The notes under the pieces were generated by a model, which worked only from the letters and a program-made list of their open reading frames with translations, made no database searches and was not told the DNA's origin. Below, in pieces: positions 1,452 to 11,554 of a stretch of DNA of 14,558 nucleotides. The DNA is from Bacteroidota bacterium (GTDB lineage: Bacteria; Bacteroidota; Bacteroidia; Flavobacteriales; Flavobacteriaceae), in assembly GCA_018656255.1 (NCBI GenBank), contig JABHYI010000278.1:1-14558 (forward strand). Direction: 5' to 3'. Position numbers and translations under genes: made by a program. How positions within the stretch are numbered: position 1 is the first letter of the stretch; each line of letters begins with the position of its first letter.

Positions 1452-2376
1452 ATTTTCTGTAATCATACCAGTATACAACAAAGAAAAACAGCTGTCTAAA
1501 ACCATAGAAAGTGTTATTAAACAACGTTTTGAAGATTTTGAGCTCATTGTAGTTAATGATGGTGCTACAGACACCAGTGAGGCCATAATTAAGAGCTTTA
1601 CAGATCCAAGAATACACTACATTAAACAAAAAAACCAGGGAGTTTCTGTAGCTAGAAATACCGGTATACAATCTGCAAATGCAGACTACATTGCGCTGTT
1701 AGATGCAGATGATATATGGAAAGAAGACTATCTTGAAAAAATAGATGCTCTTATAGATGGGTATCCAAAACAACATGTATTTGCAGCGGTTTGTACTATA
1801 GAGTCTAGAGGAAAAATGTATAAACCAACCTACTCCATAGCAAACCTATCTCCAGATAAAAGCTATGTAGTATCTTACTATACATCTAGCTATATAAATA
1901 CCATACTCACCAGTAGCAGCACGGTTGTACATAAAGATGTTTTTGAAACAATTGGACACTACAACCCAACCATGCGCAGTGGAGAGGATACAGATTTATG
2001 GATTAGACTTGGTCTAGCCTACACAGTGGTTTTTTTAAATACTTCATTAGCAACATATCGCTTTGAGGCAACGAGTTTGTCAAATTCTCCAAAACAAGTA
2101 AAAAAAGCGCTAGATTTAGATTGTTATGAAAAACACATAGCAAGCAACAAAGGGCTTAAAAAGTTCTTGGATTTAAACAGGTATTCGCTAGCCCTATTTG
2201 CAAAAATAGTAGGAAACAAAAAGGATTATTTAAAGTATAAAAAAGGGATAGATCTCAAAAATCTTAACAAAAAGCAACGTTTTTTAATAGGCGCACCTAG
2301 TTTTGTTTTAAATGTTTTAGTGTGGTTAAAAGTAGTTTTAGAAAAAAATGGGCTTCAGTTAAGCGCCTACAAATGA
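1444..2376 (+). CDS. Glycosyltransferase family 2
   Basis: 310 residues with a typical GT2 N-terminus: MPRFSVIIPVYNKE (1-14), VVNDGATD (36-43), GVSVARNTG (66-74) and the metal-binding LLDADD (85-90). A second acidic motif, GEDTDLW (180-186), is the position that supplies the catalytic base in processive and oligosaccharide GT2 enzymes. It would transfer one sugar to the growing lipid-linked oligosaccharide at the cytosolic face of the membrane. The specificity is unknown. The start ATG lies inside the end of the preceding gene (8-bp overlap, other frame), so the two are almost certainly one transcript with coupled translation. The 3' end runs 18 bp into the 3' end of the opposite-strand ketoisomerase gene. 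Confidence 0.88.
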   Translation: MPRFSVIIPVYNKEKQLSKTIESVIKQRFEDFELIVVNDGATDTSEAIIKSFTDPRIHYIKQKNQGVSVARNTGIQSANADYIALLDADDIWKEDYLEKIDALIDGYPKQHVFAAVCTIESRGKMYKPTYSIANLSPDKSYVVSYYTSSYINTILTSSSTVVHKDVFETIGHYNPTMRSGEDTDLWIRLGLAYTVVFLNTSLATYRFEATSLSNSPKQVKKALDLDCYEKHIASNKGLKKFLDLNRYSLALFAKIVGNKKDYLKYKKGIDLKNLNKKQRFLIGAPSFVLNVLVWLKVVLEKNGLQLSAYK

Positions 2377-2778
2377 TGTAAAGACATCATAATCACGGAT
2401 GTAATCTTCTTCTTGATACACCTCACTTACCAAGGATAAACAAACAGCGCCTGCAGAAAAATTTTCTAACTCTCGCCAAACCCCGCAAGGTATTAAAAGG
2501 CCCTTGTTAGGTCTATTTAAGGTAATGGTTCTCCGCTGTTTGCCATTATCAAGCACCACATCAAAACTGCCACTAAGGGCTATTAAAAATTGACGCAGCT
2601 GCTTGTGAGCATGCCCTCCTCTACTACTATCACTAGGGACATCATACAAATAGTACACGCGTTTTATTTTAAAAGGCAATACATCCTTTTCTATAACAGA
2701 GAGGTTTCCGCGACCATCAGGATCACTTATTTTAGGTATTTCTTGTAATGATATGTTGGCTAAATTAACGTATGACAT
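2359..2778 (-). CDS. fdtA: dTDP-4-keto-6-deoxyhexose 3,4-ketoisomerase (FdtA/QdtA, WxcM-like)
   Basis: A 139-residue single-domain cupin, the usual length for FdtA-type sugar 3,4-ketoisomerases. The enzyme moves the keto group of dTDP-4-keto-6-deoxy-glucose from C4 to C3, making the substrate for a 3-aminotransferase. Motifs: DGRGNLSVIE (21-30), RVYYLYDVP (40-48), RGGHAHK (53-59) with the two active-site histidines H56 and H58, IPCGVWREL (96-104) and the family signature EEDYIRDYDVF (123-133). FdtA (product leading to Fuc3N) and QdtA (Qui3N) cannot be separated by eye, so the symbol covers the class. It overlaps the upstream GT4 gene by 14 bp and is likely translated from the same mRNA. Its partner aminotransferase is about 3.6 kb away on the same strand instead of adjacent. 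Confidence 0.9.
   Translation of the reverse strand: MSYVNLANISLQEIPKISDPDGRGNLSVIEKDVLPFKIKRVYYLYDVPSDSSRGGHAHKQLRQFLIALSGSFDVVLDNGKQRRTITLNRPNKGLLIPCGVWRELENFSAGAVCLSLVSEVYQEEDYIRDYDVFTSFVGA
2373..2390. terminator. Weak hairpin at the convergent gene ends
   Basis: ATGATGT (2373-2379), loop AAAG, ACATCAT (2384-2390) form a perfect 7-bp stem. It covers the stop codon of the plus-strand GT2 gene and the last codons of the minus-strand ketoisomerase. The stem is AT-rich and has no flanking U tract, so an intrinsic terminator role is uncertain. It is listed because the two genes leave no other room for one. Confidence 0.25.
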
Positions 2779-3877
2779 GTTGTAGTAATTTATCCCATTT
2801 TGCTGAAATTTCCTGCATAGAAAATTGTTGTACAGAGCCTTGGGTTTGGGCTTTTAATTTCAAATATAACACTTCGTCTCTACAAATGACACCAAGGGCA
2901 TCTGCAAATTTTTCAGGATCTCTTTCTTTCACCAAAAGGCCATTGTAGTTGTGCTGTATTATCTCTGAAGGACCTGAAATAATATCCAAAGAAATAACAG
3001 GCACCCCAACAGATAAGGATTCTACAAGTACCATAGGAAATCCTTCATAAAAACTAGTTAGGGTAACACATCTAGCATTTTGTATAATACCAAAAGGGGC
3101 TTTTGTAAAGGGTAAAAAAACAATGTGCTTGTTACATGGCATACTTACAGCAAGATCTTGTAACATTTTTTTGTCTGGCCCATCACCCATAATAACTAAA
3201 GACACACCATCTTTCCAAACCCAAGAAGCGTTAAAAGAGTGTATTAAAAAAGAAAGGTCTTTAATCCCGTCATGCAATCTTCCATAACTAAGTATGTAGT
3301 TGTTGGCTGGCAAATCATCTATTGAGGCTTCTTGTTTCCAGGCTGGATTATATGCATTATGGATAGTGCTACAGTTGAGAACTCCACTTGTCTTAGCAAC
3401 ATGCAACTCAATATGAGTAGACACTGTTACAGTAGCTAATTGAATATTATATATGGCGGCCATTTTTGAGACCATCTTGGTGAAATATTCTTGCTTATTA
3501 GAGCTATGCACTACGTAAATAGTACTAAGGTCTCTATAGATATACTTTTTATAAAATAACTCTCTAAAATATTCGTTTTTAGGTCTGTGATCAATCACAA
3601 CATCAAATGCTTGGGTTTTTAAATACCTGCGTAATTTTTTAAACCTAGTAAGTCTTGCAAGAAAGTGGTCATCTTTAGGTTTTAAAGCGCCTAGATTAAA
3701 GAGTGTGCCGCTGTATTTAAAATCAATTTCATTGTTTAAAACAACGATATGAACCTGGTGCCCTAAACTAGAAAGCATTTGAGAGAGCATAGCTACAGAA
3801 CGCTCTGCTCCACCTTTTGCTAATGAAATAGAAACCAGGCAAATTTTAAATTTCTTTTTATGCGCTGTTTGCGTCAT
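2765..3877 (-). CDS. Glycosyltransferase family 4
   Basis: 370 residues from the ATG at 3877; a TTG one codon earlier is possible but less likely. GT-B fold retaining sugar transferase. The N-terminal acceptor domain has the GGAERS loop (22-27), typical of GT4 enzymes working on lipid-linked glycans. The C-terminal donor domain has YGRL (198-201), VIMGDGPD (228-235) and the E-x7-E motif EGFPMVLVE (278-286), followed by GVPVIS (291-296) and SGPSEII (301-307). No membrane segment is seen; it should act at the cytosolic membrane face. It is the first gene of a two-gene unit with the ketoisomerase (14-bp overlap), which suggests, without proof, that it may transfer the amino sugar made by that pathway. 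It is divergent from the next glycosyltransferase with 49 bp between starts. Confidence 0.9.
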   Translation of the reverse strand: MTQTAHKKKFKICLVSISLAKGGAERSVAMLSQMLSSLGHQVHIVVLNNEIDFKYSGTLFNLGALKPKDDHFLARLTRFKKLRRYLKTQAFDVVIDHRPKNEYFRELFYKKYIYRDLSTIYVVHSSNKQEYFTKMVSKMAAIYNIQLATVTVSTHIELHVAKTSGVLNCSTIHNAYNPAWKQEASIDDLPANNYILSYGRLHDGIKDLSFLIHSFNASWVWKDGVSLVIMGDGPDKKMLQDLAVSMPCNKHIVFLPFTKAPFGIIQNARCVTLTSFYEGFPMVLVESLSVGVPVISLDIISGPSEIIQHNYNGLLVKERDPEKFADALGVICRDEVLYLKLKAQTQGSVQQFSMQEISAKWDKLLQHVIR

Positions 3878-3910
3878 CAATTAATGTTATTTTTGATGCA
3901 TACCTAAACC

Positions 3911-3926: not shown

Positions 3927-5069
3927 ATGAAGATCCTTCTCGTTGGTGAATATAGCAGATTGCACAATTCTTTGCAAGAAGGACTGCGCGCTTTGGGCCA
4001 TCAAGTTATCCTTATATCAACGGGAGATTACTTTAAAAAGTATCCTAGTGATATTATCATACAAAGAAGCTTTGATAAAGGGTTGGCTCGAAAACTAAAA
4101 ATAGCAATCTACGTACTATTTAAATTTGACATTACGTCTTGGCATATGACCAAGCAGTTTTTTAAAACCTCAGAAAAACTAAAGGGATTTGATGTGGTAC
4201 AACTCATTAATGAAAGCCCTTTTGGAGCTAGCGTTAAGGATGAAATTAAAATGATTTCGTTCTTGAAACAAAACAACAAAAAATTATTTTTACTGAGTTG
4301 TGGGACAGATTACTTAAGTGTAAAACATCAATTAAGTAACGCAAACCCATACTCTATAATAAGCCCTTATAAAGATGGCAGTATAGCAAAAATAGCCTTT
4401 AAAAATATTTTGAAATACACTACCCCACCCTTTAAAAAACTACACCAGTACGTTTTTAAAAACATAGACGGAGTTATAGCAAGTGATTATGATTATCATA
4501 TGCCACTAGTGGGTAATAGTAAGTATCTGGGGTTAATACCAAACCCAATAAACACCTCGAAGCTTAGTGTTTTTGAATTGGACACAAAGGGCCCTATTGT
4601 TATTTTTATGGGTATTAACAGAACCAATTACCACAGTAAAGGGATATCTTACTTTGAAAAGGCAATAGCTATTATTCAACAAAAATTTCCTAAGCAGGTA
4701 CACATAGAAATTGTTGAGAATTTGCCTTATGCGCAGTACATAGAGAAATACAATAATGCCCATATTATACTAGATCAAGTATTTGCTTATGATCAAGGCT
4801 ATAATGCTTTGGAGGCTATGGCCAAAGCAAAAGTGGTGTTTACAGGTGCAGAGTCTGGGTTTATGGAACATTACAAGTTAGATAGTCCTGTTGCCATTAA
4901 TGCACTGCCAGATGTAGATAGTTTGGTTCTTGCCCTGGAAGATTTGATCAAACACCCAGAAAAAATTAAAGAAATTGGGATGGCTGCACAACATTTTGTG
5001 ACACAACATCACAATCACAAGAAAGTAGCTCAGCTATATCTAGACACTTGGAAGTTATCTAGGCTATAG
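3927..5069 (+). CDS. GT-B glycosyltransferase (GT1/GT4-like)
   Basis: 380 residues starting MKILLVGEYS, a typical first strand of a GT-B Rossmann domain, with GLRALGHQV (19-27) following. The second domain starts near 222 (KGPIVIFMGINR) and carries GISYFEKAI (239-247) and DQVFAYDQGYNALEAMAK (283-300). In this group of enzymes that last stretch occupies the place of the donor-binding E-x7-E region. E296 is retained, but the canonical E-x7-E is not clear, so this is a divergent GT-B member rather than a plain GT4. It would add one sugar to the lipid-linked glycan. It is the only plus-strand gene between two minus-strand groups. Its 3' end overlaps the flippase 3' end by 11 bp. No own promoter was found. 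Confidence 0.82.
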   Translation: MKILLVGEYSRLHNSLQEGLRALGHQVILISTGDYFKKYPSDIIIQRSFDKGLARKLKIAIYVLFKFDITSWHMTKQFFKTSEKLKGFDVVQLINESPFGASVKDEIKMISFLKQNNKKLFLLSCGTDYLSVKHQLSNANPYSIISPYKDGSIAKIAFKNILKYTTPPFKKLHQYVFKNIDGVIASDYDYHMPLVGNSKYLGLIPNPINTSKLSVFELDTKGPIVIFMGINRTNYHSKGISYFEKAIAIIQQKFPKQVHIEIVENLPYAQYIEKYNNAHIILDQVFAYDQGYNALEAMAKAKVVFTGAESGFMEHYKLDSPVAINALPDVDSLVLALEDLIKHPEKIKEIGMAAQHFVTQHHNHKKVAQLYLDTWKLSRL

Positions 5070-6369
5070 AAGTAGTATCTTCTTGAGATATCTTTTGATT
5101 GTTAAAATAACGCCACACCAAGAAAATCACCACTATAAAATAGATGATATACCTTAAAAAGTGGCCCATAACAATACCTTCTACACCATACTGAGTGACC
5201 AAGTAATTGGCGAAACCATAAAATAATCCTAGAGACAATAGCTCAGAGAAAATAAAGTTGCGTACCATTTTTTTAGCTAAAAACTGATGTGCCAAAACTA
5301 GAGAAGCCAGTCTAATAAAATCTCCTAGTAATTGCCACTTAAATAGCGGTAGCATCTCATCTAATCCAGGATATAGCAGTTGTATAATAATCGATTTACC
5401 AAAAAACACAACTAACATTCCTAGACCAAAAATAGGTAACAGCGTTTTGTATATACTATACACCTCATTTTTAAAGGCTTTACCTGTGTAGATTCCTGCA
5501 AACTTTGGCAATACATATAAAGAGAATAAAGATCCAGAAAAGACCATGTAATTTCTTGAAATAAAGGTGATGTTTGTCCAGACTCCAGCATCTCTCTCAG
5601 ACATTTTTTCTGCAAGCATGGATCTAATATCAATTTCAACAAAATGGAGTAAAATTGTTGCCACAAAAGACATCAGAGTGAAAGCCAATAAGTTTTTTAA
5701 AAACGGAGTTTGAAATTTTAACTTAGAAAACTGCACATATTGGTTGAGAAGTTTATAAAAAATAGCTACCACTACAATCACCTGTATAGCAGGTGCCAAT
5801 GCAATAGCAATTAAAACTCCAGAAAGGTTGTATTGATATAGGCACACTACCAAAAGGACTATACTAAGGAGGTAGCTAATGAGCTCTATTTTAGCAAACT
5901 TTTTATATTCAGACAAGCCATTTACTACGCCGCTAAAAACACGTTGCACAGCAATACTAGGTGCTACCAAAGCAACAAACCGTATCACAAAACTATAATC
6001 TACACTATCTGTAAACAAATAGTTACTAATTGGGCTTGCAAAGATAAAAAGCACAAGACCAGAGAGTAGTGTACCCACAACCATAAATACAAAAGCGGTA
6101 GAAAAAAGTTGTTGAAGTTTGGGCTTATCATCCTTATACTCAGACAAGTATTTTACCACACCATTAAACACACCCAAAGAGGTGAGAGAGGTAAGCAGCT
6201 GGGTAAGACTTCTTAATTGCCCTATTTTAAAAAGCCCTTCTGCACCCACTAAATCAAAAAGCAAACGCTGCACAACGGCAGACACCAATAATCTGACAGA
6301 TACCACTACAGCATTTAAAGAGGTCATCTTTAACAGCAAATTACTTTTAATAAAGTCTGGAATCTTCAA
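5059..6369 (-). CDS. wzx: Wzx-type lipid-linked oligosaccharide flippase
   Basis: 436 residues from a TTG at 6369, or 422 from the ATG at 6327 (residue 15). The longer form is preferred because WzxE-like proteins carry a short basic/hydrophobic lead before the KxxSLNAV segment (here 14-22), but the choice is open. About 12 hydrophobic segments run through the protein, as in the MOP/MATE-like exporter superfamily. It would flip the undecaprenyl-diphosphate-linked oligosaccharide from the inner to the outer face of the cytoplasmic membrane. The N-terminal pattern (VKYLSEYKDD, then a repeat-like VNGLSEYKKF) resembles the WzxE group, whose E. coli member moves a unit containing an acetylated amino-dideoxyhexose. 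That fits the FdtA/FdtB sugar. The TTG follows the aminotransferase stop TAA directly and in the same frame. Confidence 0.88.
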   Translation of the reverse strand: MKIPDFIKSNLLLKMTSLNAVVVSVRLLVSAVVQRLLFDLVGAEGLFKIGQLRSLTQLLTSLTSLGVFNGVVKYLSEYKDDKPKLQQLFSTAFVFMVVGTLLSGLVLFIFASPISNYLFTDSVDYSFVIRFVALVAPSIAVQRVFSGVVNGLSEYKKFAKIELISYLLSIVLLVVCLYQYNLSGVLIAIALAPAIQVIVVVAIFYKLLNQYVQFSKLKFQTPFLKNLLAFTLMSFVATILLHFVEIDIRSMLAEKMSERDAGVWTNITFISRNYMVFSGSLFSLYVLPKFAGIYTGKAFKNEVYSIYKTLLPIFGLGMLVVFFGKSIIIQLLYPGLDEMLPLFKWQLLGDFIRLASLVLAHQFLAKKMVRNFIFSELLSLGLFYGFANYLVTQYGVEGIVMGHFLRYIIYFIVVIFLVWRYFNNQKISQEDTTSIA

Positions 6370-7470
6370 TTAATATGCATTTACAACGTTAATTACTTTT
6401 TGAATTTGCGCTTGAGTCATTACCGGGCTCATGGGCAAACTAATAACTTGTTGGTGTATTTTTTCTGAAACAGGAAATTGTAAGGTTTCAAATTCTTTTA
6501 ATGCCTGTTGATGGTGCGGGGGTATCGGGTAATGAATTAAAGTACCTATCCCCTTATTTTTAAGATAGTCTTGAAATTCATTTCTAGAGGAAACTTGAAT
6601 TACAAATAAATGAAATACATGGTTTTTTGAACCATCATAGGCAGGAAGCACAATTTTTGGATTTGTAATTCCTTTTATATATGCAGTTGCAACGTCTCTC
6701 CTTGCGGAGTTATCTGCATCTAAAACAGGTAATTTAACAGATAAAAAACTGGCCTGCAATTCATCAAGTCTAGAATTTACTCCTAGTAATTCATTAACAT
6801 ATTTTGATGAAGACCCGTAGTTACGTAATTTTTTTATGGCCCCTGCCAAGCTAGCATCATTGGTAGTAACCGCCCCTGCATCACCAAGGGCTCCTAAGTT
6901 TTTGGTTGGATAAAAACTAAATCCTGCTGCATGACCAAGATTTCCTGCACGTTTGCCATTGGTATGGATTGCACCGTGAGCTTGCGCCGCATCTTCAATA
7001 ATCAATAGGTTATTGTAAACAGCAAAGCTATTTATTTGCTCCATTGGTGCAATTTGCCCATACAGGTGCACTGGCATGATGGCCTTTGTGGTTGGTGAAA
7101 TAGCTTGTTTTAATGCAGAAATATCAAAATTAAATGTTTGATTTTCTACCTCAACTAATAGGGGTTGTAATCCAGCTTGTTTTATAGCTATTATAGTAGC
7201 AATATAGGTGTTAGAAGCAACAATCACCTCATCCCCTAGCTCTAACTTACCCAATACCTTATACCCTTCTAGAATAAGACGTAATGCATCCAAACCATTG
7301 CCAACTCCAATACAATATTGAGTTTCACAGTAGTCTGCAAACCGACTCTCAAAGGCGCTAACTTGATTCCCTAATACATAGTAGCCACTGTCTAAAAAAT
7401 CTTGGAACTGATTTTTAAAGGATTTATCGAAACGGGAGTTAATTGCGTGTATGTCTATAAAAGGTATCAT
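6370..7470 (-). CDS. fdtB: dTDP-3-amino-3,6-dideoxyhexose aminotransferase (FdtB/QdtB, DegT family)
   Basis: 366 residues, the normal length for DegT/DnrJ/EryC1 sugar aminotransferases. This PLP enzyme transfers an amino group, usually from glutamate, to the 3-keto sugar made by FdtA. Motifs in order: GNGLDAL (57-63), SNTYIAT (86-92), the cofactor-contacting EDAAQAHGA (159-167) with D160, [14 protein letters not shown] (184-197) with K190 as the Schiff-base lysine, LRNYG and NSRLDELQA, and [10 protein letters not shown]. These match the FdtB/QdtB/TylB-like 3-aminotransferase branch well; 4-aminotransferases of the ArnB/PglE type are a less likely alternative. Its ATG overlaps the stop of the upstream FemAB-like gene (ATGA), and the flippase follows with no gap, so acyltransferase, aminotransferase and flippase are one operon. 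Confidence 0.9.
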
Positions 7471-8444
7471 AGTATATGCAAATCTAAGGTTTTATAGCAT
7501 GCTGTATCTATAAGATAGTTATCTGCCACATAGGTACGAGCCCCACAACTCTCTTTCCAGAAAATAAGCCCACTGTTTAAAGCCGTCCCATTTTCTTCGC
7601 TAGAGATATTAAAGTCAAAATAGCGTTTAGAGCTATCAAAATGATTTATAATATAATCATAGGCTAAATCCAAAGATCCAAAGGCATTCTTATCACTATT
7701 GCCAGAAACATACTGCGGATGTATCGTAGTTTTTGTTAAAAACAGGGTTGTTCCTGCAACAATAACATTGTCTTTGTAGACATTTACCTGCTTGATATGA
7801 TCTGGAAACTTGGCGGCAAGTAGTTGTATTTCCTCAAGGCTATGAACCGGAGCTATACCGTGCTTTTGTTGAAGATTTGGAATTAGTATCTCATTCCAAA
7901 ATCCTTCAAAGTTATGCTCTACAGCAATAGTGAGGCCATTTCGCTTTGCTTTGTTAATACCTTCTCTTCTGTTTTTCTGAAATTTTATTTTAGTACTCGT
8001 ATCTATAACCATTAATGCATCTCTTTTAATAAGTGTAGCATTTGCCTTGAATAAAAAGTAAGACAACTCATCAGAGGGCATTGTGTTGTAAAACGTTGGT
8101 ATGTTTCTCAGCTCTAAAGTAGAAATAGCCTTGGCATCTAAAAATGCAAGCAGCGCTTTAAAAGCTTCAAAGGTGTAAAGTAGTTTAGCGCTTTTACTTA
8201 ACACTAAGCTCCCATAAGTAAGACCTTTGTGAGAGTATAGTTTATCACCCACAATATTTGCAGGCAGTACAGCATAGAGTAAGTCATCTTTATATACTAG
8301 CAAAGAATAATCTGTAAATCTATCGCTGTGGTACTCCATAAAATCACGGGCAAACAAAAACGTAGCGTTTTTGGCCCCAGAAATAAAAGTATCCCAAGCC
8401 AGGCGGTTTTCTTTTGTGTATTTTTCTACGCGATAATTAGACAT
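7467..8444 (-). CDS. FemAB/GNAT-like acyltransferase, possibly amino-sugar N-acyltransferase
   Basis: 325 residues with two tandem GNAT-like halves as in the FemAB and BioF2-like families. The region [15 protein letters not shown] (157-171) is the characteristic basic helix. It is followed by an acyl-donor domain with [12 protein letters not shown] (224-235), SGNSD (247-251), [12 protein letters not shown] (255-266), the FDFNISS strand (277-282) and [11 protein letters not shown] (292-302). No signal peptide or membrane segment is seen, so it acts in the cytosol or at the membrane face. Known relatives transfer aminoacyl groups to peptidoglycan precursors or acyl groups to amines. Here its stop overlaps the aminotransferase start by 4 bp, so N-acylation of the 3-amino sugar is the best contextual guess. 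The sequence alone does not show the substrate. A promoter lies directly upstream. Confidence 0.72.
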
Positions 8445-8473: not shown

Positions 8474-8505
8474 CAAAGGTACGACTATTGTGCAACGGGT
8501 TCAAA
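8474..8505 (-). promoter_or_regulatory. Promoter of the acyltransferase-fdtB-wzx operon
   Basis: On the minus strand TTTG (8505-8502) is followed after 20 bases by TACCTTTG (8481-8474), a full match to the Bacteroidota TTTG/TAnnTTTG promoter. Transcription would start near 8467, about 22 bases before the ATG at 8444. The -33 element lies inside the last codons of the sulfatase gene, so the sugar operon can be expressed separately from the upstream three-gene unit. Confidence 0.72.
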
Positions 8506-9981
8506 AACGATGGTTCCATCGGTATCAATGTACTTATAAACGCCACTTGGGGCATCTTTATTTAAAATAACATAGCTACTATCATCTTGAAGGTGATCAA
8601 GATATGATGTGTCTTGTGTTAAGTAAGATACCAAAATCCTGAAAACGTTTACAGCACTTTTAAAATTTATATCATATGAGGGTATATCACCCTGTGGCCA
8701 ATGTATAGAAAGGTTACTACTCAAGATAGAATATATTAAATCTCTATCTTGGGTTTTAGTATAGGTTTGTAGGGTATACTCCATACCAACAAAGCCGCCA
8801 TGATCTGCCATAATAACTACAAGGGCATTGGGGTCGTTTTGTTTAATAATATCTAAGGTTTGGACAAGGGTTTTATTGGCATTGGCCAGCGTTTGTTGCC
8901 AGAGTGCGCGTTCTCCATCCACACCCAATGATTGGGCCTCTCTACCGTGCACATGTCCTGGATTAAATATTTCAATAAAGAAAAACTTAGGTTGGGATAT
9001 AACTTCTTTGGTATAGGTGTTAAGTGGGGTAAGAATATCATAATAAGTACCTAACCCTGTACCTATATAACCAACATCGCTATTAGTGAAATTACAAACA
9101 TCATACCCTAACACTGGTTTATTAAGCAGTAAATATGGCATCTCTGCCAAAAAATAACTCTTATACCCATTGTTTTTAAATATGTTTAGCACCGTGTTAT
9201 CTGAGATAATCATATCTCTGGCATTGGTGTTTTCTGTAATATCACTTCCCTTGCCATAATAATGATGCTTCATCATAAAAGTGGCACTGTTTGATGTTAG
9301 AGTGGAGGCGTAATTACTCCTAAAATTTGGATACGTTTTAAAGTTATTTGTGTCTAAATACTTCTTAAAATTATTGTTATCTATGTTGTAGTAGCCTTTG
9401 TCTATTTCTGAAAAATTAACATAGCCATCTGGCTGAATAAAGTATACATTGGGCTTTGTGACAAAACTAGCCTCTTGTATGGCATCTGGTTGCAATGTCC
9501 AAGAATTGTCATAAAATAGTTGTTTGCTCAAAACGGGAATTAATGTAAAAAGACCCAAGACCGCTAGGACCAATTGCAGCACAATTATTTTTTTATATTG
9601 TTTCCATAAAAAAAAGGCCAGTATGGCGGCTATTAAAACAATACCAAGTATCATTTTTTTTTGTATGCCTGCATACAAACATATTTTCATTAAAAACAAA
9701 AAAGTAAATACACCTAAAAAAGGAACCACATACTGCTGCCATTTTTGTAAAACCTTCACTTTTACAAACAGTTTTTTAATTATATAAAAAAGTAGTGCAG
9801 GAAGCCCTATAAAGCTTGCTACAAAAAACAAAAAATGCTGCCAGGTATTAACTAACTGAAAATTGTTACTGTAATAAAATAGAATTGGATAAAGTCCTGC
9901 AGCAATACCAGCGAGTAAAACAGAGGTATTGCTTGACTTTAAAAAAGAAGCAACAAAAGACCTATTGTTCTTTGCAGACAT
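8485..9981 (-). CDS. Membrane-anchored sulfatase/LtaS-type alkaline phosphatase superfamily enzyme
   Basis: 498 residues. The N-terminal part has five likely membrane segments (about 21-38, 48-68, 84-103, 109-126, 132-150), leaving the catalytic domain (about 177-440) on the outer face of the cytoplasmic membrane. This plan is that of LtaS-type phosphoglycerol and phosphoethanolamine transferases. Catalytic features: PNVYFIQPDGY (177-187) with the metal-ligand aspartate D185, SNYASTLTSN (222-231) with the nucleophile Thr/Ser near 226-227, NPGHVHG (340-346) and MADHGG (391-396) with D393 and H394. It may transfer a phospho-alcohol or act as a sulfatase or phosphatase on the exported glycan; substrate unknown. 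The ATG directly follows the methyltransferase stop codon in the same frame. The coding region contains T9 (9654-9662) and A8 (9608-9615) runs. Confidence 0.82.
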   Translation of the reverse strand: MSAKNNRSFVASFLKSSNTSVLLAGIAAGLYPILFYYSNNFQLVNTWQHFLFFVASFIGLPALLFYIIKKLFVKVKVLQKWQQYVVPFLGVFTFLFLMKICLYAGIQKKMILGIVLIAAILAFFLWKQYKKIIVLQLVLAVLGLFTLIPVLSKQLFYDNSWTLQPDAIQEASFVTKPNVYFIQPDGYVNFSEIDKGYYNIDNNNFKKYLDTNNFKTYPNFRSNYASTLTSNSATFMMKHHYYGKGSDITENTNARDMIISDNTVLNIFKNNGYKSYFLAEMPYLLLNKPVLGYDVCNFTNSDVGYIGTGLGTYYDILTPLNTYTKEVISQPKFFFIEIFNPGHVHGREAQSLGVDGERALWQQTLANANKTLVQTLDIIKQNDPNALVVIMADHGGFVGMEYTLQTYTKTQDRDLIYSILSSNLSIHWPQGDIPSYDINFKSAVNVFRILVSYLTQDTSYLDHLQDDSSYVILNKDAPSGVYKYIDTDGTIVFEPVAQ

Positions 9982-11370
9982 CTATACTTTGTTTTTTAAT
10001 AAATATAAAACTCTTTTGGTTCCAGGGACAGTTTCTTTTTTCTGGATATCAAAGTATTGCTTGTAGCCAGCTTCAAAAGCCTCTTGATTATAAAAATCAA
10101 AGTGGTTGATAAATTCTCGCTTTCTAACTAGAAGTGAGCTTACCCAAGAATCTTCTCGGGTAGGAAACTCTAGTATTAAATGTTTTGAGAACGCAGCAAA
10201 AAATTGAGCAGATCTATCAAAAGGAACATTCCCACTTAGGGTTATATGATGTATAAGAGCCAGCGCCATGGTAACATCTGGGCTATAGCCTTTGAGTCGC
10301 TCCACAAGAGAATTACGCTCTGAATTGTTTAAACCTATACCAGGGGCAGGCTGCAGGACATCACAAACAAAGGCCAACATGTTTGTTTCTTTGTTTTGTT
10401 GTATCTGCTTGTAATTGTAGCCTACTGCATTGCTGTCAATATCTGTAACAATTACGTGAGGTACTTTGGTTACCACAGTACGAGCAAAAGTTCCGTCATT
10501 GCCTCCAATATCAATAAGTCTTTGAGGATTTAATGCAGTAACCCAATCTTCGATTAAGGTTTTTTTACCTTGAAATGCAGCATCATTGTAATTAGTTTTA
10601 TCATAATAATTGCCCCACTCTGTTTCTTCTTTAATAGATAGCTTTTTGATAAAATCAAAGAGATTATCTATGATGTTATTTTGGGCCTTTAGAGAGAGTT
10701 TTGCAATTTTGGTTTCTGCTTTGTAATCTTCACTGTGGGTGCGTTCCATTTTTGCCAACAAATGTATGTTGGTATATATGGTTGAGCTTAATTTGCTTTT
10801 ACCTGGCAACAAAGATGCTATCAATTTTACAGGAATACCATCTATATGTGTTTGCAACATTTTAAAAATCTCTGTGCCGTGATAAGAGGCCAAAACTAGT
10901 GGTCCAAAAAAATGAGTGATAAATTGTTTGTAGGCTCTCCAAGGAGTGTCTTTCTCATAAAAATCGAAGGACAGCGTGTCTATAAAAACAGGACTCCCTT
11001 TGTGGAAAGTTACATTATAGGCAGATGCATCTTTTAAAATAAACCCTTTAGAAAGCGCATATTTATGAACCTTCAACGTATGTAGGGCAGCATGTTTGTA
11101 CTGCTCAAAACTCCACTCATAAGGATTGGTAATAAACGCAATAGGCTCTGGAGTAATAACTATTTGCTGGTCAGAAACCGTGGTTTGCGTGTGAGGTATT
11201 AACAGCTTATTTTTAATTAATGTCTTAAAAAAACCACTGTCTTTAAGGGCATTGTATTGTTTGAAATATATAGGGTTAATGGCACGCCTTAAGACATCCC
11301 CGTCATAAAACATGTATCCAGAGGGATCTCTAAAAGAAGCTTGGTGGGGGCTCGTGTTATTTTGTTTCAT
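9982..11370 (-). CDS. SAM-dependent methyltransferase with kinase-like N-terminal domain (NoeA-like)
   Basis: 462 residues in two parts. Residues 280-400 hold a class I methyltransferase: motif I LIDIGGNDGTFAR (285-297), the acidic strand end VTDID (308-312), a later FVCDVLQ stretch and MALALIHHI as motif IV/V. Residues 80-135 look like the catalytic loop of a protein-kinase or aminoglycoside-phosphotransferase fold: LKDASAYNVTF (112-122) and VFIDTLSF (128-135), with D114, N119 and D131 in the order of D...N...D of active kinases. As far as I recall, this two-part plan matches proteins annotated as NoeA-related nodulation or glycan methyltransferases. It would methylate a polysaccharide or its precursor in the cytosol. 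It overlaps the small upstream gene by 14 bp and abuts the membrane sulfatase with no gap. Whether the kinase-like part is active is unknown. Confidence 0.78.
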   Translation of the reverse strand: MKQNNTSPHQASFRDPSGYMFYDGDVLRRAINPIYFKQYNALKDSGFFKTLIKNKLLIPHTQTTVSDQQIVITPEPIAFITNPYEWSFEQYKHAALHTLKVHKYALSKGFILKDASAYNVTFHKGSPVFIDTLSFDFYEKDTPWRAYKQFITHFFGPLVLASYHGTEIFKMLQTHIDGIPVKLIASLLPGKSKLSSTIYTNIHLLAKMERTHSEDYKAETKIAKLSLKAQNNIIDNLFDFIKKLSIKEETEWGNYYDKTNYNDAAFQGKKTLIEDWVTALNPQRLIDIGGNDGTFARTVVTKVPHVIVTDIDSNAVGYNYKQIQQNKETNMLAFVCDVLQPAPGIGLNNSERNSLVERLKGYSPDVTMALALIHHITLSGNVPFDRSAQFFAAFSKHLILEFPTREDSWVSSLLVRKREFINHFDFYNQEAFEAGYKQYFDIQKKETVPGTKRVLYLLKNKV

Positions 11371-11554
11371 CTATATCTTCTTTCTCATCAATGTCTATAG
11401 AATCATAGGCGTCATCGTCTTCTTTGAGTAAACCAAGAAATCCTTTAATTTTATACATAACACCTTTAGAGAATAATAAAACACCTGCGGCTGCAGCAAC
11501 AACTGCTTGAACTATCATAGCTCCTAGACCTGGATCAAAATATAAAAAATTCAT
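11357..11554 (-). CDS. Small single-pass membrane protein with YFDPGLG motif
   Basis: 65 residues. MNFLYFDPGLGAMIVQ (1-16) matches, from memory, the Y-[LF]-DPG-x-G-x-x-x-Q start of a widespread family of tiny proteins coded next to polysaccharide methyltransferase and sulfatase genes. A hydrophobic helix (about 12-29), a basic patch (about 30-38) and a very acidic tail (45-65, mostly D, E and few hydrophobics) follow. The basic patch suggests the acidic tail stays in the cytosol. The role is unknown; it could recruit the methyltransferase to the membrane. The end of the gene overlaps the methyltransferase start by 14 bp, so translation is probably coupled. It is the first gene of the minus-strand unit, diverging from oxyR. 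Confidence 0.72.
   Translation of the reverse strand: MNFLYFDPGLGAMIVQAVVAAAAGVLLFSKGVMYKIKGFLGLLKEDDDAYDSIDIDEKEDIDETK

Follow-up and report, generated by a model that had tools for sequence, protein, structure and literature searches.

Introduction

The genes noeA and noeB were reportedly described in 1995 as host-range nodulation genes. In the open-licence PubMed Central (PMC) literature, the scope of all our literature searches, we found neither a demonstrated biochemical role for noeA/noeB nor a kinase or methyltransferase assay of NoeA. Among the closest described systems are those of a 2022 study, the available part of which defines the kinase-methyltransferase family Lani_1194, names NoeA and NoeB as homologues, reports Lani_1193 as a neighbour in 65% and Lani_1195 in 38% of 816 loci, and gives an alkaline-phosphatase (AP) fold for the NoeB relative (PMC9758233).

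Here we describe three genes in contig JABHYI010000278.1 from a marine Flavobacteriaceae-type genome (1.73 Mb, 77.7% complete); this one contig, at its full 14,558 nucleotides, is the window of our analysis. The trio encodes a small membrane protein with a YxDPG motif, a NoeA-family protein and a membrane enzyme of the AP superfamily. NoeA with an AP-type neighbour is an already known kind of locus, and the trio is not a new system because conserved neighbours of the NoeA/NoeB type were already reported (PMC9758233, available part). As far as our searches tell, what is new is the YxDPG protein as a near-obligate partner of NoeA, its presence in the nod box n5 operon, and its fusion or adjacency to PF01663 enzymes; no paper describing the small protein or its motif was found.

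Results

A NoeA-type trio on the minus strand

The three open reading frames (ORFs) run head to tail on the minus strand, as the earlier note on this DNA had described, with a junction of -14 bp (an overlap) between the small gene and noeA and of 0 bp between noeA and the AP-type gene. The features of the trio are as follows:

11357..11554, minus strand: small YxDPG membrane protein, 65 residues, YFDPGLGAMIVQ (ORF list; BLASTP; adjacency to noeA)
11471..11527, minus strand: predicted single transmembrane (TM) helix of the small protein, residues 10-28 (hydropathy and the K/R that follow; probably N-out)
9982..11370, minus strand: NoeA-family protein, 462 residues, kinase-like N-terminal domain and class I S-adenosylmethionine (SAM) methyltransferase (tblastn; structure model)
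10636..11370, minus strand: kinase-like domain of NoeA, residues 1-245, with R29, D114, N119 and D131 (invariant residues; published homologue)
9985..10629, minus strand: class I SAM methyltransferase domain of NoeA, residues 248-462
8485..9981, minus strand: AP-superfamily membrane enzyme in the position of NoeB, 498 residues (structure model; fold matches)
9517..9921, minus strand: five predicted TM helices of the AP-type protein, residues 21-40, 47-74, 82-103, 108-124 and 126-155 (secondary structure of the model; taken as TM from helix length and position)
8488..9495, minus strand: predicted outward AP-superfamily domain, residues 163-498, with D185, T227, H343, D393 and H394

The earlier note had left the families of the trio unnamed. 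Judged by its alignments, the 462-residue protein belongs to the NoeA kinase-like/methyltransferase family, because its match to the annotated NoeA of Sinorhizobium meliloti (27.8% identity, E 9e-46, tblastn against plasmids) covers both domains at full length (97% of the query). The closest relative in the species collection, among the matches listed, is from an uncultured Ulvibacter metagenome-assembled genome (98% identity). R29, D114, N119 and D131 are invariant in 40 of 40 relatives and, by motif reading and the available part of PMC9758233, are the equivalents of kinase residues K72, D166, N171 and D184, with R replacing K. These residues and that study fit the kinase-like plus methyltransferase reading which the earlier note had given. 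The kinase-like domain comes first and the methyltransferase last, with no third domain. The fold matches listed for the structure model (predicted local distance difference test, pLDDT, 90.7) are those of the methyltransferase domain; the kinase-like assignment comes from the sequence and from that study. A defence-system reading was rejected, its sole match being a weak methyltransferase one (mad2, E 0.003), and PDB sequence searches with single proteins and with profiles gave nothing clear.

The small gene pairs with noeA across genomes

In S. meliloti the gene order is nodL, a small gene annotated as 'hypothetical protein' (71 residues), noeA and noeB. The small gene, which overlaps noeA by 23 bp, encodes MPIIMSVVGFLILSIVPAHA-YLDPGTGSMLVQ... 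(YLDPGTGS), and in a single pairwise BLASTP comparison the window 65-mer matched its product at 30 bits (E 1e-7). The 462-residue protein matched 65 plasmid records by tblastn, 61 of them rhizobial; the small protein and NoeB of S. meliloti likewise matched 61 each, and the counts of the three sets agree by genus (57 Sinorhizobium, 3 Rhizobium and 1 Ensifer). In one of the records, CP073679, the match to the small gene falls into two pieces. Between two rhizobial copies (L006 and L010) 11 of 72 codons differ silently and nine differ with a residue change, five of the nine in the signal-peptide part.

For locus counts we scanned the species-genome collection and took the best 80 of at least 582 relatives. 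Of these 80 loci, 78 have the small gene next to noeA; in the two exceptions (L053 and L083) it is further upstream by one AP-type gene. An AP-type gene directly follows noeA in 70 loci, and noeA is flanked by both partners in 69. The 80 loci are not independent, since 67 of them (L012-L078) are from Flavobacteriaceae or similar.

The earlier note had claimed that the families recur together across phyla and had set a tabulation of neighbours beforehand as the test that could refute it. The tabulation upheld the claim. In a Bacteroidota sample noeA was present in 8 of 247 genomes and the small gene was adjacent in 7 of the 8; in a Chloroflexota sample noeA was present in 24 of 201 genomes, with an adjacent small gene, upstream or downstream, in all 24; and in a Desulfobacterota sample the figures were 4 of 198 and 2 of 4. 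The phylum names Chloroflexota (G256, Anaerolineales) and Desulfobacterota (G252, Mailhella) are inferences of ours. The Bacteroidota exception (G222, locus L098) is a divergent NoeA homologue (180 bits) beside which no small partner was seen; of the Desulfobacterota exceptions, G262 has a noeA that starts 106 bp from the contig end and G407 (L199) is again divergent (181 bits), likewise with no small partner seen. Co-presence of the small gene and noeA in genomes gave Fisher p-values of 9e-11 (Bacteroidota), 3e-30 (Chloroflexota) and 0.003 (Desulfobacterota), values that are too small because the genomes are related. The pairing is nonetheless far beyond chance, and the small protein is a near-constant companion of noeA.

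Two side observations concern these loci. One of the two divergent homologues (L098 and L199) sits inside a 1143-residue ORF. A Candidatus Rokubacteria contig (L041) carries a noeA 58% identical to that of the window and is possibly mis-binned, because its small protein is nearly identical to that of the Flavobacteriaceae locus L040.

The conserved face of the small protein is predicted to lie outside

The window 65-mer has one hydrophobic stretch (residues 10-28), then K/R, then an acidic tail. Because the hydrophobic stretch comes immediately after the conserved N-terminal part and K/R come next, the protein is likely N-out/C-in. Hydropathy and the structure model agree with two earlier claims, a predicted single-pass 65-mer with an acidic tail and a predicted membrane enzyme with an outward domain. 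In 89 unique noeA-linked relatives Y1 and D3 are kept in every one and Q12 in 88, Y and D/N having belonged to the pattern used for locating the site. The tail is poorly conserved, with 0 to 12 acidic residues among 21 relatives. The most conserved face, the N-terminal YxDPG, is predicted outside and therefore on the side of the AP domain. A-x-A stands immediately upstream of the Tyr, with at least 14 residues preceding, in 12 of the 89 relatives, where it resembles a signal-peptidase site; in 39 of the remaining relatives the nearest Met opens a stretch of just four residues ahead of the Tyr. No Pfam or NCBIfam match was obtained for the small-protein members tested.

Small proteins without noeA are linked to PF01663 enzymes

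Thirteen profile matches in two of the phylum samples did not lie beside noeA. Three weak Bacteroidota matches (G053, G168 and G237; E 6e-4 to 1e-2) were left out of these as chance; the ORFs in G168 and G237 are without the Y-x-[DG]-P motif and that in G053 is 30 residues long. In 8 of the 13 cases a PF01663 phosphodiesterase follows the small module or is fused to it. Separate small genes in G256 (C9), G484, G272 and G310 are each followed by a same-strand PF01663 enzyme, and in G327 (727 residues), G290, G392 and G319 the module forms the N-terminal part of a PF01663-type protein. The G392 fusion has the motif YIGPG and is a weak match (E 5e-4); the G319 fusion is split over two ORFs and is PF01663-type by a profile from the other cases, not by Pfam.

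Among the other cases, divergent YVGPG proteins in G312 and G295 (L232:1492-1710; L233, minus strand) adjoin arylsulfotransferase and sulfotransferase genes, and the small gene in G557 (C39) has an AP gene alongside on the opposite strand. A YLDPGTGS-type ORF with extra C-terminal sequence (G252:C132, L184), near a contig end, adjoins a nucleotidyltransferase-like gene. The G517 match contains internal stops and looks like chance.

The third protein resembles Thr-nucleophile phosphotransfer enzymes

The structure model of the 498-residue protein (pLDDT 94.1) has five long N-terminal helices and an AP-superfamily domain. Its highest-scoring folds are PbgA/YejM and EptC, followed by sulfatases, with LtaP/LtaS among these. 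The earlier note had called this protein a sulfatase. Formylglycine-type sulfatases carry the signature C/S-x-P-x-R, which is nowhere in the window protein and occurs within residues 150-330 of 2 of 72 AP homologues, and the Pfam Sulfatase (PF00884) score is 18.3 bits, below the cut-off of 25. A sulfatase reading was rejected on the absent signature and the sub-threshold score. By alignment mapping, D185, T227, D393 and H394 match residues of Thr-nucleophile phosphotransfer enzymes listed in the available part of PMC7576196; position 343 is H in just 33 of 62 aligned rows. With a Thr at the expected nucleophile position and a multi-TM N-terminus ahead of a predicted outward AP domain, the modelled protein fits an enzyme of this kind.

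The AP-type gene takes the position of noeB, 0 bp after noeA in the window and 6 bp in S. meliloti. Close kinship of the two proteins was not borne out by direct comparison, and on alignment evidence the AP-type protein shows no more than a remote similarity to NoeB of S. meliloti: hhalign gave a probability of 60% (E 8e-5, 285 columns) and a profile without rhizobial sequences scored NoeB at 23.2 bits. A score of 141 bits was discounted, the profile having been iterated over a set that contained NoeB.

Across 16 genomes, AP-type genes made up 17 of 144 ORFs in noeA regions and 2 of 147 ORFs in control regions (Fisher p 2e-4), an upper estimate because some of these genes had gone into the profile and several of the genomes are related. 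In the Chloroflexota sample an AP gene lies within about 1.5 kb of noeA in 15 of 24 loci. Two to four AP-type genes lie downstream of noeA in 20 of the 80 loci.

Several loci have unusual arrangements. Three or four noeB-like genes stand downstream of noeA in L016 (11466-17366), L018, L020, L022, L025 and L058. In L082 and L087 (by Pfam) and in L007 and L084 (by profile) the AP gene lies upstream and the small gene downstream of noeA. The AP/Sulfatase-domain protein at L087:415-2934 has a weak C-terminal match to DUF7024 (19.3 bits, cut-off 24.4).

The surroundings are glycan-related in Flavobacteriaceae

Downstream of the trio, three further genes follow on the same strand:

7467..8444, minus strand: FemAB/GNAT-like acyltransferase, 40 bp downstream of the AP-type gene (TIGR03019, E 1.6e-15, 57 bits against a cut-off of 260)
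6370..7470, minus strand: DegT/FdtB-type sugar aminotransferase (Pfam DegT_DnrJ_EryC1, E 5e-99)
5059..6369, minus strand: Wzx-type flippase (NCBIfam WzxE, 190.9 bits, below the cut-off of 325)

The FemAB/GNAT-like gene is probably on the same transcript as the trio. The earlier note had held the coupling of the trio to be the strongest in the window; that is not so, because femAB-degT (-4 bp), degT-wzx (0 bp) and GT4-fdtA (-14 bp) are equally tight. Since the downstream junctions are equally tight, the trio seems to open a run of six genes (small gene, noeA, AP-type, femAB-like, degT, wzx). At 2359-3880 of the window the GT4 gene and fdtA share a 14-bp overlap, equal to that of the small gene and noeA. 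No nodL was seen in the window.

Across 87 loci (68 flavobacterial), neighbour clusters included the FemAB-like acyltransferase in 59, DegT in 57, Wzx in 53 and FdtA in 31, and the flavobacterial surroundings are those of a typical lipid-linked glycan locus. For other groups we compared 92 neighbour proteins from 13 non-flavobacterial loci with 118 controls drawn from those 13 genomes, leaving out noeA and AP matches, incomplete ORFs, and proteins below 170 or of at least 1500 residues; three of 16 genomes (G525, G549 and G648) were set aside. ORF calling was crude (longest ORF), and both sets contain spurious ORFs. Among 25 of the 119 neighbour families, those listed, GT2 occurred in three, GT1 in two, and GDP_Man_Dehyd, NTP_transferase and Epimerase in two each; none of these was among the 25 of 159 control families listed. 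The excess is weak because the comparison covers 25 of 119 and 25 of 159 families, and a glycan neighbourhood was rejected as a general rule. The earlier statement that the trio lies next to glycan loci stands clearly for Flavobacteriaceae and amounts to a weak excess over controls at the 13 other loci.

Discussion

We propose that the trio serves to modify the envelope, as a NoeA-type unit whose small membrane subunit is near-obligate and in which NoeA, the AP-type enzyme and the small protein act jointly; we put the probability of this reading at roughly 40%. Beside what was computed (NoeA membership, small-noeA co-occurrence, domain architecture and conserved residues), we infer a scheme of topology, complex formation, substrate and reaction order. 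Much as in WbdD, the cytosolic kinase-like domain of NoeA would phosphorylate a sugar on a glycolipid in the membrane or on a lipid-linked glycan, and the methyltransferase domain would methylate the sugar or its new phosphate. Outside, the AP-type enzyme, with a predicted Thr nucleophile in its outward domain, may transfer or remove a phospho group on molecules of the same class. The small YxDPG protein would span the membrane once with its YxDPG face outward, join the membrane/AP part and recruit NoeA there. The overall model of the earlier note, in which a lipid-linked glycan is modified inside and edited after export, is partly supported: the association of the families and their place at the membrane stand, whereas the sulfatase label falls and the small protein also occurs apart from noeA, with PF01663 enzymes.

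Several observations weigh against this proposal, which is weakest in the putative kinase, in the substrate and at loci where no AP gene shares the transcript. Mutants in noeA/noeB reportedly (1995) showed no change in Nod-factor structure, a point that also tells against a role in Nod-factor decoration. No Pfam kinase family was found in the N-terminal domain of 10 NoeA relatives, the only match being RIO1 (E 0.074) in one relative. In the fold search sulfatases come within about 2 Z units of PbgA, H394 is replaced by E in 5 of 63 AP-type proteins, and the AP-type proteins are diverse, the partner in L091 being without a Pfam AP-superfamily match. BLASTP found no match between the window AP-type protein and S. 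meliloti NoeB (16.5 bits, E 2.4). Nine of the 24 Chloroflexota noeA loci show no AP gene in the flank of about 1.5 kb, and in 13 of the 15 that do it is on the opposite strand from noeA, so that the two share no common transcript there. Outside Flavobacteriaceae, the neighbours at the 13 loci are weakly glycan-related against the controls.

The small protein may be the membrane anchor of NoeA alone, with the AP-type protein an independent enzyme that is often nearby. This is unlikely, though the near-total adjacency of the small gene and noeA (78/80; 24/24) agrees with it, as does the looser link of the AP gene (after noeA in 70/80, near it in 15/24, with 13 of these on the opposite strand). 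Against an anchor stand the conserved motif predicted outside the membrane, the unconserved tail, and the 8 of 13 noeA-free cases in which a PF01663 enzyme is fused to the small module or adjoins it. For the same reasons (the outward face, the tail and the PF01663 link), docking of the methyltransferase, as suggested earlier, may be just one half of what the tiny protein does.

It is a little less likely still that the trio forms a regulatory complex, in which a YejM/PbgA-like lipid or lipopolysaccharide sensor with weak or no catalysis controls a NoeA protein kinase/methylase and the small protein passes the signal across the membrane. PbgA/YejM is the top-scoring fold with its TM part included (6v8q, 397 residues aligned over 12-498, root-mean-square deviation 15.8), and the cassette is untied from glycan loci outside Flavobacteriaceae. 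However, the D/T/D/H residues are largely kept, the 20 of 80 loci with at least two AP-type copies downstream are better suited to enzymes than to one sensor, and the small module is otherwise linked to PF01663 phosphodiesterases. A role in decorating oligosaccharide signals that are exported (in rhizobia, Nod factors), a hypothesis stated in the available parts of PMC9048898 and PMC9758233 and in keeping with the operon nodL-small-noeA-noeB, is improbable, since NoeA and the small protein also occur in Flavobacteriaceae, Chloroflexota and other groups not known as Nod-factor makers.

Returning to the proposed envelope-modification unit, we tentatively extend it to a broader idea. The YxDPG proteins may make up a general class of tiny membrane subunits, single-pass and N-out, whose partner enzymes move phospho groups, and perhaps sulfo groups, on the outer side of the membrane. 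The cases would be NoeB-type enzymes with NoeA, PF01663-type enzymes as neighbour or fusion, and the divergent YVGPG form beside arylsulfotransferase/sulfotransferase. The Tyr would lie at or near the mature N-terminus in a lipid- or enzyme-binding face, and the n5 operon would hide a fourth gene of this class, needed by NoeA and NoeB. The small gene is an additional n5 gene, not named in the available parts of the noeA/noeB papers. If NoeA is seen as one component of a membrane unit that recurs across phyla and has a near-obligate small subunit, the noeA/noeB puzzle gains a concrete role that is open to testing; this view would also give a first handle on a tiny-protein family and link that family to cell-surface phosphotransfer.

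Comparison with known systems

To our knowledge WbdD of Escherichia coli O9a has no AP partner. Like NoeA, it combines a kinase and a methyltransferase in one protein that acts on a lipid-linked glycan, and it is among the Foldseek matches of the NoeA model (ranks 9, 15 and 30). Its domain order as given in the source consulted is reversed (methyltransferase, kinase, coiled coil), which excludes NoeA from membership of WbdD. EptA/EptC, LtaS/LtaP and YejM/PbgA share with the window AP-type protein a membrane part and a predicted outward AP domain with a Thr nucleophile, and EptA and LtaS have five TM helices; identity to the AP-type protein is 10-16% in the structural alignments listed, and we know of no YxDPG partner for them. 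Lani_1194/Lani_1195 share the two-domain architecture, the conserved neighbours and the AP fold with the window, whereas the YxDPG motif, the topology and the AP link are not described in the available section of PMC9758233 on these proteins. The nod box n5 operon of S. meliloti, nodL-noeA-noeB, differs from the window in that NoeA is 27.8% identical, the third protein is remote from NoeB and the window trio lies in a polysaccharide locus; in the kinds of genes and their order, small gene included, the two are alike.

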